Virus record (IMG/VR): IMGVR_UViG_3300044491_001207
Span: 1-44,504 of that record
Direction: 5' to 3' (one strand)
DNA from: a virus
DNA length: 44,504 bases
This document shows, one piece after another, positions 5,095 to 40,541 of the stretch. How positions within the stretch are numbered: the first letter of the stretch is position 1; each line of letters opens with the position of its first letter. The position numbers and the translations under genes are program-made. The notes beneath the pieces are model-generated. The model was not told the origin of the DNA. It did not search any database and was given only the letters and a program-made list of their open reading frames with translations.

Positions 5095-5836
5095 AAATGT
5101 CCCTCTCTTGTAGTACGTAAGTTCCAAAATGCGTTACAGCAATTGCTGCTGCTTTATTGGCATATGGTATAGCAACATCTATTTTACCATATCTTAGGTA
5201 AAAGTAAACTAGTGCGGATAAAAATGTGTCGCCAGCACCACAAACATCAAAGACACTTACTCCAACTGCTGGATAATTCTTACCTTGATAATCAACTCCC
5301 TGTGCTCCCTTGGTGACAATTAGATTAGAAGAATTTTTTAATTTATTATCCAGTTTAGAATATTCGTCATCATTAATTTTTATGTATGCATGATCAACTG
5401 GTAGATTTGTCTTCTTACTGTCAATAAAGACAGGTCCATCAAACCACTCAACCAATTCAAACAACTTCTTAGATGTTATAAATCCTTTGTCATAATCAGA
5501 GATAACTAAAGCATCAAATTTTTCTTGAGGTAGATCATTTCCTAAAGGACTTACATCATCTTCACTATCAACTCTTAGGATTTGTTGATTATATCTCTTA
5601 TCAATATATCTACATTTTACTATTGGTTCTTTTTGAGTGAGCATTGTCACTTCCATATTAAATGCAGAAAGGTTTTCTTTGACATTCAGTGCCATCCCTT
5701 TCTGCTTTTCTACGTACTCATACTTCAAAATGGGTACAGGAGCTTCTGGATTCAGACGCTCACATACACCATACACATATTCGTCGGTACAACTATCTCC
5801 GATCAATAATATCTTGAATTGTTTTTGTTGTTGCAT
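5078..5836 (-). CDS. PfkB-family sugar kinase, HldE N-domain (RfaE1)-like
   Basis: A 252-residue ribokinase-fold protein. The N-terminus (ILLIGDSCTDEYVYG, then NPEAPVPILK at 29-38) matches the start of the heptose-7-phosphate kinase domain of HldE. The C-terminal GAGDTF at 200-205 is the anion-hole and catalytic-Asp (D203) motif of PfkB kinases, and IVTKGAQG (173-180) is the ATP-binding strand. HldE kinase phosphorylates D-glycero-D-manno-heptose-7-P at C1. It is somewhat shorter than the usual domain of about 310 residues. It overlaps the nucleotidyltransferase gene by 44 bases and the HAD gene by 17. Confidence 0.83.
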   Translation of the reverse strand: MQQQKQFKILLIGDSCTDEYVYGVCERLNPEAPVPILKYEYVEKQKGMALNVKENLSAFNMEVTMLTQKEPIVKCRYIDKRYNQQILRVDSEDDVSPLGNDLPQEKFDALVISDYDKGFITSKKLFELVEWFDGPVFIDSKKTNLPVDHAYIKINDDEYSKLDNKLKNSSNLIVTKGAQGVDYQGKNYPAVGVSVFDVCGAGDTFLSALVYFYLRYGKIDVAIPYANKAAAIAVTHFGTYVLQERDIYEICD

Positions 5837-6197
5837 ACTCTTCTATTCTATCAAAGAACCTCAGCTCAGCAGCGTACATTGAACCAATGACTGACTTATT
5901 TTTCCAGTCAGATCCTACAACCATTATATCAGGTTTTACTGTTTTTATACAGCGTTCCAACTCTTCATCACTATCAAAGATTACAACATAATCAACTGCT
6001 TTTAGATTCTGGAGCATGTATGCTCTATCACCTACATTATTTACTGGTCTAGTTAAACCTTTCTTTTCCTGAACTCTACGGTCACTGTCTATACCAACAG
6101 TCAAAAAGTCTCCCAAAGACTTGGCATAATTAAGAAGTTGAACGTGTCCTGGATGCAGGATGTCAAACGTTCCATTAACGAAGATGTGTGTAGACAT
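5793..6197 (-). CDS. Nucleotidyltransferase, HldE C-domain (RfaE2)/TagD-like
   Basis: A 134-residue cytidylyltransferase-fold protein. NGTFDILHPGHVQLL carries the HxGH nucleotide-binding motif (HPGH), RPVNNVGDRAYML the conserved Arg and Asp, and YATTKTIQDI the C-terminal (I/Y)xTTK motif. The order of these and the spacing resemble the ADP-transferring half of HldE more than glycerol-3-phosphate cytidylyltransferase, although the nucleotide cannot be decided by eye. In bacteria this domain is usually fused behind the kinase. Here it is separate and lies 5' of the kinase, overlapping it by 44 bases. Overlap with the epimerase upstream is 23 bases. Confidence 0.84.
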   Translation of the reverse strand: MSTHIFVNGTFDILHPGHVQLLNYAKSLGDFLTVGIDSDRRVQEKKGLTRPVNNVGDRAYMLQNLKAVDYVVIFDSDEELERCIKTVKPDIMVVGSDWKNKSVIGSMYAAELRFFDRIEEYATTKTIQDIIDRR

Positions 6198-23735: not shown

Positions 23736-24123
23736 GCACAAAGGCAACTACTGGTGATACTATAGCACTTTCTGTAGAGGATATCAAGGGTCTGAGAGTT
23801 TTAATTGCTTGAGGATTAGTTAGAATTAGAATTCCTCCCAGTGCTCCGATGCCAATCCAAAGTTTCCGTTCCAATAATGATAGTCGTTTAGTAACGCTGT
23901 CATGATCGCTGTCCATTTTATCACGTAGTTTGTCGATCTTATCAAACAACACTGCGTCGATCTCTTCTTGTTTCGTGATTCTTTCCTCATGAACCGCAAG
24001 CATTCTACTCACGTTATTATTTACCTCTGCAATTTTTTCAATTGCAGAATCCAACCTTGAGACCAGTGCCTCAAAGTTTTGAAGTCTCTCCTCTAAAACT
24101 GCCACCTTAACTTGCTCAGCCAT
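23722..24123 (-). CDS. Coiled-coil protein with one membrane segment
   Basis: A 133-residue protein. Residues 1 to about 85 form a long heptad-rich helix (VAVLEERLQNFEALVSRLDS, then IDAVLFDKIDKLRDKM). One hydrophobic segment follows at about 88-104 (LWIGIGALGGILILTN) and a short tail. The layout resembles small phage inner-membrane proteins, some of which are spanins or superinfection-immunity factors, but no specific family is visible. It overlaps the genes on both sides. Confidence 0.62.
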   Translation of the reverse strand: MAEQVKVAVLEERLQNFEALVSRLDSAIEKIAEVNNNVSRMLAVHEERITKQEEIDAVLFDKIDKLRDKMDSDHDSVTKRLSLLERKLWIGIGALGGILILTNPQAIKTLRPLISSTESAIVSPVVAFVHGSH

Positions 24124-24313
24124 CTTTAGGTGTCCAGAGTTTCCTTATACCTTTCTGGTAGATATACTTTTTCCTTTTTCTTCTCACTGGAGGATCGTCA
24201 CCAGACTCTACTGTACCAGCAATGTTTCCGCTACCAACATTATTGGTAGGAGGTGCTACCTGTTCGCGAAGACGAATCAAGTTTATTATCTTGTCAAGAG
24301 TCTTCTTTTCCAT
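24116..24313 (-). CDS. Small basic hypothetical protein
   Basis: A 65-residue protein starting MEKKTLDKIINLIRLREQ, with a Gly/Ser-rich linker and a basic end (RRKRKKYIYQKGIRKLW). No domain is recognised. It overlaps its upstream neighbour by 20 bases and the downstream coiled-coil gene by 8. Confidence 0.58.
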   Translation of the reverse strand: MEKKTLDKIINLIRLREQVAPPTNNVGSGNIAGTVESGDDPPVRRKRKKYIYQKGIRKLWTPKDG

Positions 24314-25552: not shown

Positions 25553-25759
25553 CTATATATTCTCTAAAAATTCTTTTAATGATTTTTTCTTTTTCTCAGG
25601 TAACTTTTTATGCTTAGTAGAAGCAAAGTCTTTCGCATCACTCTTCTTCATTGATGCTGCTGCCTTAGCAACCTCAGGTGAAGGGTTGGTCATGTCACCT
25701 TTTTTGGTGGCATAAACCATACCCATAAACCTTTGCTGTGCCTTAGATACTGCTGGCAT
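25553..25759 (-). CDS. DUF3008-family small basic protein
   Basis: A 68-residue lysine-rich protein. The start MPAVSKAQQRFMGMVYATKK and the end DAKDFASTKHKKLPEKKKK follow the DUF3008 pattern (A-V-S-K-x-Q-Q-x-x-M-G-M and F-A-x-T-K-H-K-x-L-P). The family is found in phages and bacteria with no known role. It lies one base after the large basic protein, which carries similar Lys/Ala-rich composition, suggesting association with the same virion component. Confidence 0.75.
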   Translation of the reverse strand: MPAVSKAQQRFMGMVYATKKGDMTNPSPEVAKAAASMKKSDAKDFASTKHKKLPEKKKKSLKEFLENI

Positions 25760-25760
25760 A

Positions 25761-28085
25761 TCAAGTCGCTTTCTTTCTGCGATTCATCTCCTTCGTCACT
25801 CTCTTCATCATAAATTGATTAGAAGGAAGACTCTGATCACTACCACTTACTTGCTTATGCAATGCTGCTAGTTTCTCATCAGACTGTTTGGCCATCTTGG
25901 CATCTTCTTTAATTGCACCCTGGCCATGCTTGGCGCGAATGCTTGCCTTTACTTTCTCAAGTGCAGACATACCATCATACTTTGGTTTTTTCTTACCAAA
26001 TGTATTTGGTGTGTTACTAACTGGTTTGTTGTAACGTTGGTTGCCACCAAGTCCACCACGTTCCATGCGACGATCTCTTAGAGAATCTTCGGTTGCTTCA
26101 CCCATTGCTTTCGCGGGTGGCTCAGTCTTTTTTGCTTTGTTCAAACTCTGTTGTCTTTTCTGAGCAATCATTCTATCAACCATTGCTTTCTTCTTTTGAA
26201 GTTGCAATTCTTGAGGAGTCATTGATGCCTCTTCTTTTCTCAGGTTTGCTTTCCGCATCTTCAAGTATGCCCTGTCCTTGGAACCCATACGGGCTTGACC
26301 TTGTGGTTTCTTAGAACCACCAGCGGGATTAGAACCAGTGTTCTTTGCTCTGTATGAGTAGTTTGCACCGCTGCCCTTAGAGTCACCAGAGACCATCTTA
26401 CCAGCCATGGAACGACCGTCCTGATACTCCTTCTCAGATTGTCCGTGTCTACCTTTATGAAGTTCGTCAATCTGCTCAAGTTCTTCTTTGGTTAAAGCTG
26501 CAGCACGTTTGCGGGCTTTGTTACCCTTACCTCTCGCATCATCAGCACCATACTTACTATAACCACCTTTCAACTGACGTTCATGTGCTGCTTTTGATTT
26601 GTCTGCAACACCTTTAGAATAACGTGATCCACCAAATTCTTTTTGATCACTATCTGCTTTTGCACGGGTCTTCTTAAGAATTTGAGCCTTAGCAGAAGTA
26701 TCAGATTTTTCTGGACCAACATTATACTTCTTACGAAGTTGATCACCCCTACTCATGGGTTTTGCTGGTTCTTCTTTCTTCTTACCAAGAAGTCTCTTTA
26801 CTGCAGAACGTAAACCCTCATCTAAAGATTGATACTCCTCATACATATCATCCCAGGTAAGATCAGAGCAGTCATACCCTTCAGTAATAAGGAAATCAAC
26901 ATACTCTTCAACCTCAACTTCTTCATTCTTAGCACCAGACTTATGACGGACAGTTCCTTTCTCGTCAGTATAGGTTTCTTTCTCCTTTCTGGCAGTTACA
27001 TAACCTACACCAGGAACTACACCAGTTTTACCTGCTGCTCTTGCTGCGTTTCTGTCTGCTGCTCTTTGTGCTGCTCTCTTACGATTGCGATCATAAGAAC
27101 TCATTGCTTCATCAACAGTCTCTTCACTCATACGGTCAACAACTTTCTGTGCCATTTTTTTGACACCACGCTTAGTAGAGACCTTTGCTCTCTGGACAGC
27201 AGGAGTTGCCTTCATCTTAAGGTTTCTTGCTTTGTTATATCCCTTGACTGCCATCTTACCAAGAAAACCCTTTGCTTTCTGCTTCAGTTTATCTCTGGTT
27301 CTTTCACGCTTAGGTGCTTCGGTGTCATGACCCATAGTCACAGTTGCCTCAATAAGAGCCTGCTCAATTGCTGACTCTATATCATCCTCAGAATATCCTT
27401 CTTCAATCAGTTCATCATATACTTCTTCAACAACACCATCAAGTTCAGTAACCTCAATTTCTTCTAAAAGAGTTCCACCCATCTCTTCAATTGCCTCACC
27501 CAGTTTAGGATTAATATTAATTTTATTTTTTATATTTTTTTCTTTAATGGGTTTTTCACTTTCATCATTACCCACGACCTCAGAGAGATCGTTCCTCCAA
27601 TCAGAGAATGCCTCCTTTATTTTCTTTTTAGACATTGCCTTACCAATTGCCTTGCGGCGATTCATCAAATACTTATCAGTGCCATCTTTCTTACCGTCAT
27701 TATTGACATCACTATCTTCCTTACCCACAGGATCAAGTGCTTCTTTAGTCATACCAACAATAATTTTATTATTTTTGGTTTTCTTATCCATATAGGAAAT
27801 GCTTTGCTTTTGTTGATCAGCATAACCTTTTCCCTTTGAAGGGGCAAGACGTGTATCACCTGCTTTTCTATCAGTAGCAGCTGCCTTTCTCATTTCAGTA
27901 TCTTGTCCTCGTACCTCTTCAAAATGAGGATTCTTCATTTGAGGACCCTTAGCAAGATCCTTACGTGCCTTCTCATTATTTGCCTGACGCTTCTTCATAT
28001 CTGGTTCCAGATATGTATCATCTTTCTTTTCAGCAATTTGATTCAAATAAATTTTAGAGAGATCATTCAAATGAATTCCAGACAT
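25761..28085 (-). CDS. Large basic putative internal virion protein with protease-like sites
   Basis: A 774-residue, highly charged, low-complexity protein rich in Lys, Arg, Ala and Glu. There are four matches to the T4 gp21 prohead protease rule (L or I, any, E, then A or G): IKE/A at 156-159, LIE/A at 245-248, ITE/G at 400-403 and LDE/G at 421-424. A sequence of the D-x-D-x-N-x-D-G type is at 124-131, like an EF-hand or dockerin calcium loop. Basic helices ([19 protein letters not shown]) could bind DNA. It follows the capsid-targeted nucleotidyltransferase gene by 10 bases. No enzyme domain is recognised. Confidence 0.7.
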
Positions 28086-28095
28086 GGTAATTTTA

Positions 28096-29322
28096 CTACT
28101 TCTTTTTCTTATATTTATTTATTAAATTCTTAATACCAAGAGTTCCCGTCATTCTCATTGTATACTCACGATGTGAATCTGTTCCCACTTCTCTCTGAGA
28201 TCCAGGAACACCAGATGGTCCTGGATAATTTACAACTGCTTCCATCACATCATGAATCCAGGATTTAAACATATAGTTCTCTTTTGTTAAACAAATAAGA
28301 TGATTAGTCCCTCTACGAATAATCTCTCCAATCAATCCTGTGTTTAAGTTCTCTACAATATCACCAATTTTAAAAATATTCTCACTTACATATTGGTCAC
28401 GTAGTCCTCTAGGATCACACTTAGGTGCAATTTCCCACATCTCTGCAACTTCTTTCTTTTTCTTCTTCGCACCCATACCTTGACGGACAGCATTAAAGAG
28501 TGCTGTAGTATCACCGTCATCCAATTCTTTTGGAGTGCCGCGACGGAAAGAATCAAAGTCATCATCAACAACTGCCTTTCTCATCTTAGATGCTGACATA
28601 CCTTCTACACCCTCAGCATCTGCATCTCTTACACCAGCAGAGATAACACGAATCAAATCAAAGTCATACAACTCACCATTATATTTTTGTGCTAGGTTTT
28701 CAAATTCAGCCTGACGATCAGATCCAACAACAATATTCACGTTACGATATCCTTGCTCACTTGCAGTGGTAAGGACATTAAAGATAGATCTCATTTCATC
28801 ATCATTAACAATATTCTCTGAATAATCAGGGAACATTTTCTTCATAAAGGAAATCTTCATATCAGCATCCAGTGGATTTTTCTTAGGATCCTGAGAACGT
28901 GAGGGATATATTTTCAAGTCTGCGCCACCAGCTGCTTTCTTAGCTGCAGCAAGTAACTTACCATGTCCTACAGTAGGAGGATTAAATCTACCAAATGCCG
29001 TAGTCAGAGTTTCTGTAGGTTCACCAGAAGTTTGATCTGCCTCACCTGCTTTTGCTCTCTCCGCACCAGTCTCTTGAGGTGTATCCTTCTTAGTCTTTGT
29101 CTCAGGTTTTGCTGGTGCTGCTTTTCTTTTTGCAGTTGGTCCATCTTGTTCTTTTGGTTTCTTCTTATCTACAAACTTTAACTTGCCATCTTCAGTCGTC
29201 GCAACAAACTTACCACGGGAATCTAACCAACCGCCGTGTCCATCACTCTTGAGGTTCATTTTATTCGCCTGCATACTTGCCTGCGATTGTGCCTCATTCA
29301 GGAACTGAAAGAAACTTTTCAT
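28096..29322 (-). CDS. Nucleotidyltransferase with N-terminal capsid-targeting-like peptide
   Basis: A 408-residue protein. Residues 1-11, [11 protein letters not shown], match the form of the T4 internal-protein targeting peptide, cut after LNE (L8-E10) by gp21 protease. A linker rich in Lys/Pro/Glu spans about 50-105. A nucleotidyltransferase fold follows: [14 protein letters not shown] at 110-123 (HxGH), NIVVGSDRQ (196-203) and [10 protein letters not shown] (241-250). The C-terminal third (about 300-408) has [16 protein letters not shown] and MFKSWIHDV segments of an unknown small domain. The nucleotide and acceptor are unknown. Start supported by an AAGGAAAT ribosome site. Confidence 0.8.
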
Positions 29323-29352
29323 TGATATTAATATTTCCTTATACTATATTTA

Positions 29353-30513
29353 TCATTTCTTTTTATAGTCACACATTATATGCGACGGATATAATCCAGA
29401 TTGCTTATTCCTCAAATTAAACATGAATTTATAAACTGAACTTTCCATATGAATATCAAGTCTCTTTCCCTTTCCTTGAGACCCACCATACATTAATTTG
29501 ACCGATCCACTTATCGTAGATGCTTTTTTCATATATGCTTGATCCATTTCATACATCTTCACTCCACCAGATGTTCCACCATGAACCATCCAATATCCAT
29601 AACCAATAGCATATTGAAGTAAATCTTGTATGGCTGATTTGTCACACTTACTTGTCACATCAACAGTTGGCATCTTTGTCTTATGTGGATACTCATTAAA
29701 TGTTTTAGCATAAGTGATTGGATCAATTCCAAACATTCTGAATATCTCTTTTCCGATTGGATTACTATATCCTTCAAAATATTTTTTATAATCATCTACA
29801 GCAAATATTCTGCCGACACCAGAGTTAATAAAGGTCAAAGTATTTCCGTACTTGAGGGATAGATATATCTCTTCCTTTCTTGGTCCCCAATAAGTCGTTA
29901 TATCCGTAACTGTGCTACCAATATCTTTTGATTTTGATCCACCAGCAGTTACATACAATCCACCACTTCCACCAGCTAAAGGTCTTGGTTGATTTTTCCC
30001 ACCAACTGCTTCAACGTTAGAGTAACCAATCTTTACTTCTTCACCTATTAATTCTATTAATTTTTGTGCTTCTTTTTTATAAGTCGTAGGTTTACATTCA
30101 CAAGCAAGTTCACACCTTAAACTTTCATAGAAATCATTCTCAAATTTAATACCAAGATTTATTTTCTTACCACCAGTTTGACCACCAAACTCTTCCGTCT
30201 TTACCATCTCGGTGATGGGAACAGTCTTTACCTGATTGGTGTTTACAAATTTACCAACAAATAAAATTTTATCTCTATTATTACTTCTTCCGATTATAGA
30301 TCGGAGTCTTGCAAGAAGTTCATCATATCTATCTTTCTCATCACTCTCAAAAGGGTGCTCTTCATCATCCATTACTAGTATAAGAGCATGCGGTTTGAAT
30401 TGACCATCTTTATGCAAAAAAGTATCCATCAAACCATTCATATGAAGGAATTTTTTTACAAGAGTTATTTCCCTATCACCCTTTGCAATTTGAGATTTTG
30501 ACAGTTCTGCCAT
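29353..30513 (-). CDS. Hypothetical protein, possible PD-(D/E)XK nuclease fold
   Basis: A 386-residue soluble protein. The region IGSTVTDITTYWG then EEIYLSLKYGNTLTF has an Asp followed about 18 residues later by an S-x-K, which fits a restriction-type nuclease core. FENDFYESL upstream could supply an active-site Glu. The N-terminus (ALILVMDDEEHPFESDEKD) is acidic. No sequence family is recognised with certainty. The stop is 30 bases before the capsid-targeted gene, and an imperfect late box (GATAAATA) lies in the gap. Confidence 0.55.
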   Translation of the reverse strand: MAELSKSQIAKGDREITLVKKFLHMNGLMDTFLHKDGQFKPHALILVMDDEEHPFESDEKDRYDELLARLRSIIGRSNNRDKILFVGKFVNTNQVKTVPITEMVKTEEFGGQTGGKKINLGIKFENDFYESLRCELACECKPTTYKKEAQKLIELIGEEVKIGYSNVEAVGGKNQPRPLAGGSGGLYVTAGGSKSKDIGSTVTDITTYWGPRKEEIYLSLKYGNTLTFINSGVGRIFAVDDYKKYFEGYSNPIGKEIFRMFGIDPITYAKTFNEYPHKTKMPTVDVTSKCDKSAIQDLLQYAIGYGYWMVHGGTSGGVKMYEMDQAYMKKASTISGSVKLMYGGSQGKGKRLDIHMESSVYKFMFNLRNKQSGLYPSHIMCDYKKK

Positions 30514-30540
30514 TATTCTTTTTTTTAAATATTTATGGAG

Positions 30541-39118: not shown

Positions 39119-39483
39119 TTTGGGCCTCCAATATCAAGTCGTTGTTTAATAAAATTAATCTGTTCTTTAGTCAGAATTTTTAGAGCTTGTGATGCCTTCT
39201 CATTACTATAACCATAGTATTGTTTGACACATTCCAGATCCGTGACTTTATCCTTACGGAGCCAGGGAGAAAATCTCTTCTTTTTCCTCAGACTATTTAG
39301 ATAAAAAGAATATTGCATGTCTTTATCCAGGTGAGAATTTTTATTCATCTCATTAGCAAACATGACACAATCCAGATGCCCTGATAAACAACGATTGATA
39401 ATATATGGAGGATAATCTTTCGTGTGTTCTGTCAGGTCTTCTTTATTAAAATTAATTGAGTTGAGCCAATCTTTAAGTTCCAT
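39115..39483 (-). CDS. 62: Clamp-loader small subunit, gp62-like
   Basis: A 122-residue helical protein. IINRCLSGHLDCVMFANEMN and YSFYLNSLRKKKRFSPWLRK are recognisable gp62 segments, and the KILTKEQINFIKQRLDIGG end is also typical. It is shorter than T4's 187 residues, as usual in cyanophages. It forms the clamp loader with four gp44 subunits and loads gp45. It lies between the DruA-like gene (one base shared) and RegA. Confidence 0.85.
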   Translation of the reverse strand: MELKDWLNSINFNKEDLTEHTKDYPPYIINRCLSGHLDCVMFANEMNKNSHLDKDMQYSFYLNSLRKKKRFSPWLRKDKVTDLECVKQYYGYSNEKASQALKILTKEQINFIKQRLDIGGPK

Positions 39484-40541
39484 TATCTAATAATCTCCAA
39501 ATCTGCACCAGGTTCCCAAATTTCAAGTTGTGTTCTTACTCTCTCTTGAGATTGCAACTTCTCATATCTCTTAGTTGCTTTCTTCTTCCACCAAGTGATT
39601 GCTTCCTCACTAGTGTGCTCAAACTTACCAAAGTAATATCTCTTCTTCTCAGTCAATGTCTTTGCATGTTCAATACAATCATTAAACTGTTTGAGTTTTT
39701 CTTCATCTTTAAGAGAATTGCGGATGATGGAAATCATCTTGGTTTGAATTTTGAGTTTCTTAGATGACTTATCTGCAGAGATCAAACGTTCTCCACCGTT
39801 GCGTTCGTTAAACCACCAGAAGAAATTGCGGAACTCATCATCATGGAAGAGTGGAAGGAAGTTGCTCTCAGTGTCTCCTATATGCCTCAAGAAGGGTTTC
39901 AAACCATCATACATAGATACACCCTTGGTGGTTCCGTAGAGAGAGGTAGTCTCAAAATATTTAAGATCTGTTCCATACTTCCCATCAAACTGTTGCTTGA
40001 GTTCCTTAGAACATGCTAAGAGAGCAAGTAGTTTTCCACCCAAGTAATTAAACCCGAAAGGTTGAGTAGGAACAATATTGAACCCCATGACAAAATGAGC
40101 ATTAATATCAGAGAGTGGAAGGACTTTACCAAAGTAATTGTTTCTTGGTTTACTATTGATAGTAGGAGATCCAAACCTCACAACACCAACAACTTTATTA
40201 GTAGTTGTTTCTTCAACAATCCACTTATGTGTTCTACCCGGTATTGCTTCCTCAATAGGATTTGATGCTGTTAAGTTAAGAGTTTCTGAATACAACCACT
40301 GATTGTATCTTGATGATGTTTTAGGATCAGTATCTACAACATGAACTTCAAAATTCATGTCATTTGGATGCATATTAAATGCATCAAAGAATTCAGATTC
40401 TGCACCAAACAATGATCCAGGCCTATCTCCAATGCGATCTTTTTTTACAAAACGAAGGTAATCATCAATACGATTAAACTGAGTATAGTAATTGATAAAT
40501 TTATCTGCAGCCCAAACCGCATCACTCTCAGATAGAATCAT
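39483..40541 (-). CDS. DruA-like protein (DUF4338 family)
   Basis: A 352-residue protein. The core resembles DUF4338: VVGVVRFGSP (117-126), FNYLGGKLLALLACSKEL (164-181), QQFDGKYG (183-190) and YFETTSLYGTTKGVSMYDGL (195-214). The family defines DruA of the Druantia anti-phage system, whose activity is unknown to me. About 110 residues of extra basic, helical C-terminus (KKRYYFGKFEHTSEEAITWW) follow. It sits inside the clamp/clamp-loader operon between a membrane protein and gp62. Confidence 0.75.
   Translation of the reverse strand: MILSESDAVWAADKFINYYTQFNRIDDYLRFVKKDRIGDRPGSLFGAESEFFDAFNMHPNDMNFEVHVVDTDPKTSSRYNQWLYSETLNLTASNPIEEAIPGRTHKWIVEETTTNKVVGVVRFGSPTINSKPRNNYFGKVLPLSDINAHFVMGFNIVPTQPFGFNYLGGKLLALLACSKELKQQFDGKYGTDLKYFETTSLYGTTKGVSMYDGLKPFLRHIGDTESNFLPLFHDDEFRNFFWWFNERNGGERLISADKSSKKLKIQTKMISIIRNSLKDEEKLKQFNDCIEHAKTLTEKKRYYFGKFEHTSEEAITWWKKKATKRYEKLQSQERVRTQLEIWEPGADLEIIR

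Follow-up and report, generated by a model that had tools for sequence, protein, structure and literature searches.

The nucleotidyltransferase gene at 28096..29322 on the minus strand of a 44.5-kb fragment of a marine cyanophage begins with a ten-residue leader like that of the phage T4 internal head proteins, and packaging of its product through a T4-type capsid-targeting leader (CTS) is well supported. This conclusion, which bears out the core of the original prediction, follows from the conservation of the leader positions, a late-promoter-like box private to the gene, orthologues in the virion proteomes of at least four cyanophages, the recurrence of the leader as a module on unrelated proteins, and two small proteins in which it is joined to the arm of the major capsid protein, gp23. 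As a whole, we consider it probable that the enzyme is a late internal head protein that is packaged through this CTS, cut at E10 and injected, and that it would act as an NAD-type nucleotidyltransferase early in the host.

The window is the whole stretch of DNA analysed, positions 1 to 44,504 of IMG/VR virus record IMGVR_UViG_3300044491_001207. A T4-like replication cluster (gp43 DNA polymerase, UvsX, gp41 helicase, MazG and gp61 primase) occupies the minus strand of its right-hand half, and the phage nearest to this half is Synechococcus phage S-SM2 (~82% DNA identity across 74% of it). The gene is genuine and corresponds to T4 gene cluster 190 (T4-GC190), the 'cytitidyltransferase', a core gene in T4-like cyanophages: it matches PHROG 395 cytidyltransferase (E=5.6e-104), its protein is 81.5% identical to SSM2_161 of S-SM2 and 72% to the S-SCSM1 orthologue, and related sequences occur in 560 phage records, for the most part from cyanophages. 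The features of the locus are as follows.

25553..25759 (-): ORF68, 84% identical to S-SCSM1 ORF93, a virion protein
25761..28085 (-): ORF774, very basic (pI 9.65), parts related to S-SCSM1 ORF92 and ORF89, both annotated virion proteins
28096..29322 (-): leader-bearing nucleotidyltransferase gene, T4-GC190 'cytitidyltransferase' (ORF of 408 aa, ATG start, pI 9.0)
28116-28122: ATAAATA box of ORF774
28243..28410 (-): small C-terminal beta domain, residues 305-360 (model and relatives)
28471..29016 (-): nucleotidyltransferase domain, residues 103-284 (PF01467, 21.2 bits against a cut-off of 21; Foldseek matches to NadD, CoaD and NMNAT structures)
28579..28596 (-): SASKMR, second nucleotide-binding motif, residues 243-248 (R248 invariant)
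28963..28974 (-): TVGH (T/HxGH motif), residues 117-120
29017..29292 (-): residues 11-102, a small N-terminal region to about 53 and a variable disordered linker at 54-102 (AlphaFold pLDDT <50)
29290..29295 (-): predicted prohead-protease cut E10/A11, L-N-E then A (T4 gp21 motif, E10/A11 conservation, leader/gp23 junction proteins)
29293..29322 (-): capsid-targeting leader, codons 1-10 (translation, T4 comparison, 88-sequence conservation; predicted helix 4-10)
29347..29353 (-): ATAAATA late-promoter-like box, 31 bases upstream of the ATG (letters checked; box at related loci)
29353..30513 (-): ORF386, upstream neighbour of the enzyme gene, with its own ATAAATA box at 30530-30536

Two further genes of the window lie apart from this locus. 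A second, unrelated cytidylyltransferase-like gene (5793-6197, minus strand) sits in a sugar/LPS-type cassette beside a PfkB kinase, epimerases and transketolase halves, and a gene at 39483-40541 (minus strand), within the phage replication cluster, matches the DruA (Druantia) Pfam model (E=6e-10).

The enzyme N-terminus aligns without gaps to T4 MKTYQEFIAEA, with M1, K2, F7, E10 and A11 identical and conservative changes at S/T3, F/Y4 and L/I8. The likeness to a T4 internal protein noted in the original prediction therefore stands, but the protein was misnamed: MKTYQEFIAE/A is the start of IPII and IPIII, whereas IPI starts MKTFKEFTSTTTPVSTITE/A (longer stretch, MKTFKEFTSTTTPVSTITEA). In T4, the first ten residues of IPIII suffice for packaging, targeting rests chiefly on residues 4 and 7, and processing rests on residues 8 and 10 within the gp21 motif L/I-X-E (reviewed in PMC9026906). 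The cyanophage leader agrees position by position with these mutagenesis sites. Among 88 family sequences gathered without using the leader as a criterion, F, L or Y stands at position 4 in 88/88, F7 is present in 88/88, and the gp21 motif positions hold L/I8 in 88/88, E10 in 88/88 and A11 in 87/88; codons at the conserved positions vary synonymously, and positions 3, 5, 9 and 12 are free to change. By sequence, then, the leader reads as a T4-type CTS: it has about ten N-terminal residues, targeting residues at 4 and 7, and a small residue directly after the L/I-X-E of positions 8-10. It is kept in GenBank relatives of ~42-50% identity, in P-RSM6 although the linker there is rebuilt, and in two relatives (L160 and L253) that join it straight to the catalytic domain, the region of residues 11-102 being absent. 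Relatives of the enzyme that have no leader occur in 121Q and MIJ3 and, as a 187-aa version, in the T4-like cyanophages S-RSM4 and S-CAM4; packaging is therefore not universal. In S-RSM4, with its leaderless enzyme, the separate gene for the C-terminal domain (S-RSM4_62, L091:2028-2282) starts MKDFKKLREEA, possibly a degenerate leader. A secretion signal was considered for the N-terminus and rejected from reasoning and the structural model, as the leader has no long hydrophobic core and acidic E10 comes straight after a two-turn helix.

Cleavage between E10 and A11 is likely from the motif and its conservation; in S-SCSM1 ORF91 the predicted cut would turn the N-terminal EAAESGASVQAK into the mature start AAESGASVQAK. 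A small protein of S-SM2, SSM2_108 (L083:41376-41804), reads MKTLKQFLKE, then TPTNSVGNGGYTSAGGQTVAGYD, and the S-SM2 major capsid protein reads ...MIAE, then QPTNAVGNGGYTSSGGQTVAGFD. The leader of SSM2_108 ends at the predicted cut of gp23, a position transferred to S-SM2 by analogy with T4, and the mature gp23 arm comes directly after it (BLAST E=3e-13). A second protein joining the leader to the gp23 arm is L274 (E=2e-07); both small proteins consist of the CTS leader and a duplicate of the mature gp23 N-terminal arm. Neither gp21 nor gp23 was found within the 44.5-kb window, a fragment of the replication region; a gp21-type prohead protease is annotated in the relatives S-SM2 and S-SCSM1. 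ORF65 (window 24116-24313, minus strand), a small, basic protein (pI 10.2) encoded near the enzyme cluster, carries PPTNNVGSGN, which is similar to the capsid-protein arm motif PTNxVGxG.

The setting of the gene suggests late expression. A T4-type late box, [ACT]TAAATA at about -30, precedes the gene at 57/57 sampled related loci, compared with a shuffle expectation of 13%. In the window it lies upstream of the enzyme gene, both flanking neighbours and ORF184, and no such box was found upstream of the replication genes tested (mazG, gp41, uvsX, gp43 and gp61). Because of this difference, the enzyme gene probably belongs to the late class although the cluster around it is early/middle.

Virion location of the enzyme family is already published, with a first report in 2010. 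Mass spectrometry of virions has detected orthologues in S-SM1 (PMC3037559), S-SCSM1 (ORF91; PMC9602691, record MK867354.2), S-CREM2 (PMC10665884) and S-SZBM1, where the emPAI of 0.26 comes close to the 0.30 of the prohead protease (PMC9146016). ORFs 89 to 93, a run surrounding the enzyme, are labelled virion proteins in the S-SCSM1 record. ORF386 of the window corresponds in position to ORF90 of this run, with no homology detected between the two. For the leader-bearing proteins SSM2_065, SSM2_108 and SCSM1_30, no virion evidence was found, and SCSM1_30 does not bear the virion-protein mark in the S-SCSM1 record.

The cargo belongs to the HxGH/cytidylyltransferase-like superfamily (PF01467 class), which upholds the nucleotidyltransferase identity first assigned to it: the Pfam score is just above the cut-off, T/HxGH and S-x-S-x-x-R motifs are present, and Foldseek returns the corresponding Rossmann-type folds. 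The AlphaFold model runs from a helix at 4-10 through the small N-terminal region and disordered linker to a confident catalytic domain and the C-terminal beta domain, which is a separate gene in S-RSM4 and S-CAM4 and, in L260 and L290, is the only domain that follows the leader. The motif reported earlier as HxGH at 117-120 in fact reads TVGH, a histidine occupying the first position in the P-SSM2 and P-RSM6 orthologues (HAGH); H120 and R248 are invariant in a 30-member alignment of relatives. The fold, from which a prediction of the acceptor had been suggested, is of a NaMN/NMN- or phosphopantetheine-adenylyltransferase-like class, and no family-level assignment passes. None of the NCBIfam equivalog models for NadD, NadR or FAD synthetase passes (TIGR00482 scores 14.0 bits against a cut-off of 112.45), which leaves both 'NMNAT' and 'cytidyltransferase' unproven as names. 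Searches of Pfam, NCBIfam and PDB sequences for the exact substrate gave superfamily-level matches only; with the short form L253 as query, phmmer found nothing but chance matches in the PDB, mostly to Hsp70.

The proposed genome search for further leader proteins was productive. A regular expression for the leader spacing matches 1/876 possible starts in the window, 4/3,788 in the complete S-SM2 genome (three of them annotated genes) and 4/3,429 in that of S-SCSM1 (two annotated genes). A single match by itself would be weak evidence; conservation across the family and recurrence on unrelated genes are not products of chance. A looser pattern scanned in 14 complete phage records gave 23 matches against 3 for the reversed pattern, and 19 of the 23 begin genes, including T4 IPII, IPIII and gp61.1. 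The last (L243:1167-1331, 54 aa) starts with the CTS-like MKTFKEFIKE, and its gene, as is that of the cyanophage enzyme, is close to gp61. In IMG/VR, the stricter pattern has at least 117 matches; among the 117 listed, 113 start ORFs of >40 aa and the remaining 4 are cut by contig ends, with 54 belonging to the enzyme family and 63 to other proteins. With position 10 unconstrained, gene starts made up 77 of the 84 new matches listed and 50 had E10; a codon-shuffled control, run over the whole collection, yielded 34 stretches, 31 of them distinct (8 gene-like, 4 with E10).

Pfam assigned the other cargoes to lytic-transglycosylase barrels (4), GNAT acetyltransferases (3), glucosaminidases (2), a lysozyme (1), a phospholipase-A2-like domain, DUF6267 and a zeta-toxin-type kinase with a nucleotidase-like part. 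Outside the enzyme family, leader proteins have a median pI of 9.9, whereas the other ORFs of their contigs have one of 6.3 (p about 1e-27); a late box is present in 47% of the former and 19% of the latter (p about 2e-11). These p-values are optimistic because the leader proteins are not all independent. In T4 internal proteins, lysines contact the packaged DNA (PMC3012670). Peptidase_S77 occurs in 7/10 leader contigs of >100 kb and in 0/3 long control contigs, a link to a gp21-type protease that is only suggestive because 2/14 shorter controls also have it. By these sequence comparisons, the leader is a module heading unrelated, mostly basic proteins in T4-like contigs. On balance we lean towards a broader reading, in which it would be a transferable cargo tag, in wide use among T4-like phages of the sea and of fresh water, that loads a set of unrelated enzymes for immediate host delivery: nucleotidyltransferases, GNAT acetyltransferases, an ART-like protein, a P-loop kinase/phosphatase, a DUF6267 ligase-like protein, peptidoglycan hydrolases and a phospholipase-A2-like protein. 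Among individual cases, L288:897-1478 has the leader followed by an ADP-ribosyltransferase-like sequence, its ART-PolyVal match being weak and below the cut-off, and the leader also begins a DUF6267 protein at L155:947-2098. In S-SM1, P-RSM6, S-RSM4 and S-CAM4 the enzyme gene adjoins that of a ligase-like KWDGAPA protein, so the two may work together.

We propose that the enzyme would be made late, as an internal head protein, its leader helix docking via the aromatic residues 4 and 7 into the prohead scaffold core. A gp21-type protease would then cut after L-N-E, leaving a roughly 44-kDa basic enzyme amid the packaged DNA. By analogy, delivery into the host is plausible: the mature enzyme would probably be ejected with the DNA and could be active as an adenylyl-/nucleotidyltransferase ahead of phage gene expression, its most plausible product being an NAD-type dinucleotide cofactor that might aid takeover or offset NAD-consuming defence. 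This NAD-related role is a best guess, based on the fold class and on published phage NAD counter-defence (PMC9503650; PMC12028318). A phosphopantetheine-type adenylyltransferase, or a modifier of macromolecules, would also be compatible with packaging, and a product other than NAD is a real if lesser possibility. Foldseek places CoaD (PPAT) alongside NadD, and the failure of every equivalog model fits such a product too; set against this, an NMNAT entry of the PDB has the same GxFNPPT signature, albeit at E=0.32 only, and nothing points to any other acceptor. The TxGH variant is typical of PPAT, which also counts for a non-NAD product.

The protein might instead be packaged through the leader for a structural job, in DNA condensation or core assembly, its catalytic domain being secondary or useless after injection. 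The adjoining genes encode very basic, low-complexity proteins with virion relatives in S-SCSM1, leader proteins are basic as a class, and some leader-bearing relatives have no G of the GH (L144 KFNPPSKEH, L189 RFNPPSKNH), yet the invariance of H120 and R248 and a catalytic domain that is the best-modelled part of the protein make this unlikely. Less probable still, and in our judgement very improbable, is an ordinary cytoplasmic nucleotide/NAD enzyme of the infected cell, carried over into virion preparations, with an N-terminus conserved for an unrelated reason. The authors of the S-CREM2 and S-SCSM1 proteomes raised contamination or carry-over of the enzyme in CsCl-purified phage (PMC10665884, PMC9602691), and the leaderless relatives would fit a cytoplasmic enzyme; opposing it are the late-promoter box, the neighbouring virion proteins, the match of positions 4, 7, 8 and 10 to T4 mutagenesis in a leader that T4 internal proteins share, and the leader/gp23 junction proteins.

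Since 2010 this metabolic enzyme has appeared in proteomes of cyanophage virions, with no way to tell true cargo from carry-over; a T4-type leader supplies a packaging mechanism, predicts A11 as the exact mature N-terminus and lends itself to a mutational test. The leader can also serve as a sequence handle, pulling many uncharacterized, mostly basic or enzymatic proteins from environmental contigs of one of the ocean's commonest phage groups as candidate injected effectors, and, if the cargo-tag reading is true, a leader search would list the injected effectors of environmental phages straight from sequence. A literature text search for MKTFKQF, MKTYQEF and MKTFKEF found none in the searchable papers, most subscription papers lying outside that set, and targeted searches found CTS work for T4 and giant phages only. 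In these papers we found no earlier report, outside T4 relatives and giant phages, of the leader as the explanation of virion presence or of its spread to other cargoes.

Among known systems, the T4-GC190 'cytitidyltransferase'/NMNAT of the S-SM1, S-SCSM1, S-SZBM1 and S-CREM2 proteomes is of the same family as the window enzyme; the accessible parts of these papers give virion presence and NAD speculation, with no mention of a targeting leader or protease site. The phage NAD+ reconstitution enzymes (NadV/NadM/NadR, NARP2) are alike in including a HIGH-superfamily adenylyltransferase, and a NARP2 homologue is reported in virions of a Vibrio phage (PMC12028318); they differ in that the window enzyme has no equivalog-level match, and no NadV partner was found among the window ORFs scanned. 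With T4 IPII and IPIII the enzyme shares the ten-residue N-terminal leader and its spacing (aromatic 4, F7, I/L8, E10 then A11), but those are small proteins whose cleavage is proven, whereas the cyanophage cargo is a 44-kDa HxGH-class enzyme whose cleavage is predicted. T4 Alt, an ADP-ribosyltransferase, is a different enzyme, which uses the NAD that the cyanophage enzyme might make and which also has a C-terminal cut. The two are nevertheless alike as head-carried enzymes acting at once in the host (PMC9503650, PMC9026906), with NAD as a further link if our guess at the substrate is right.
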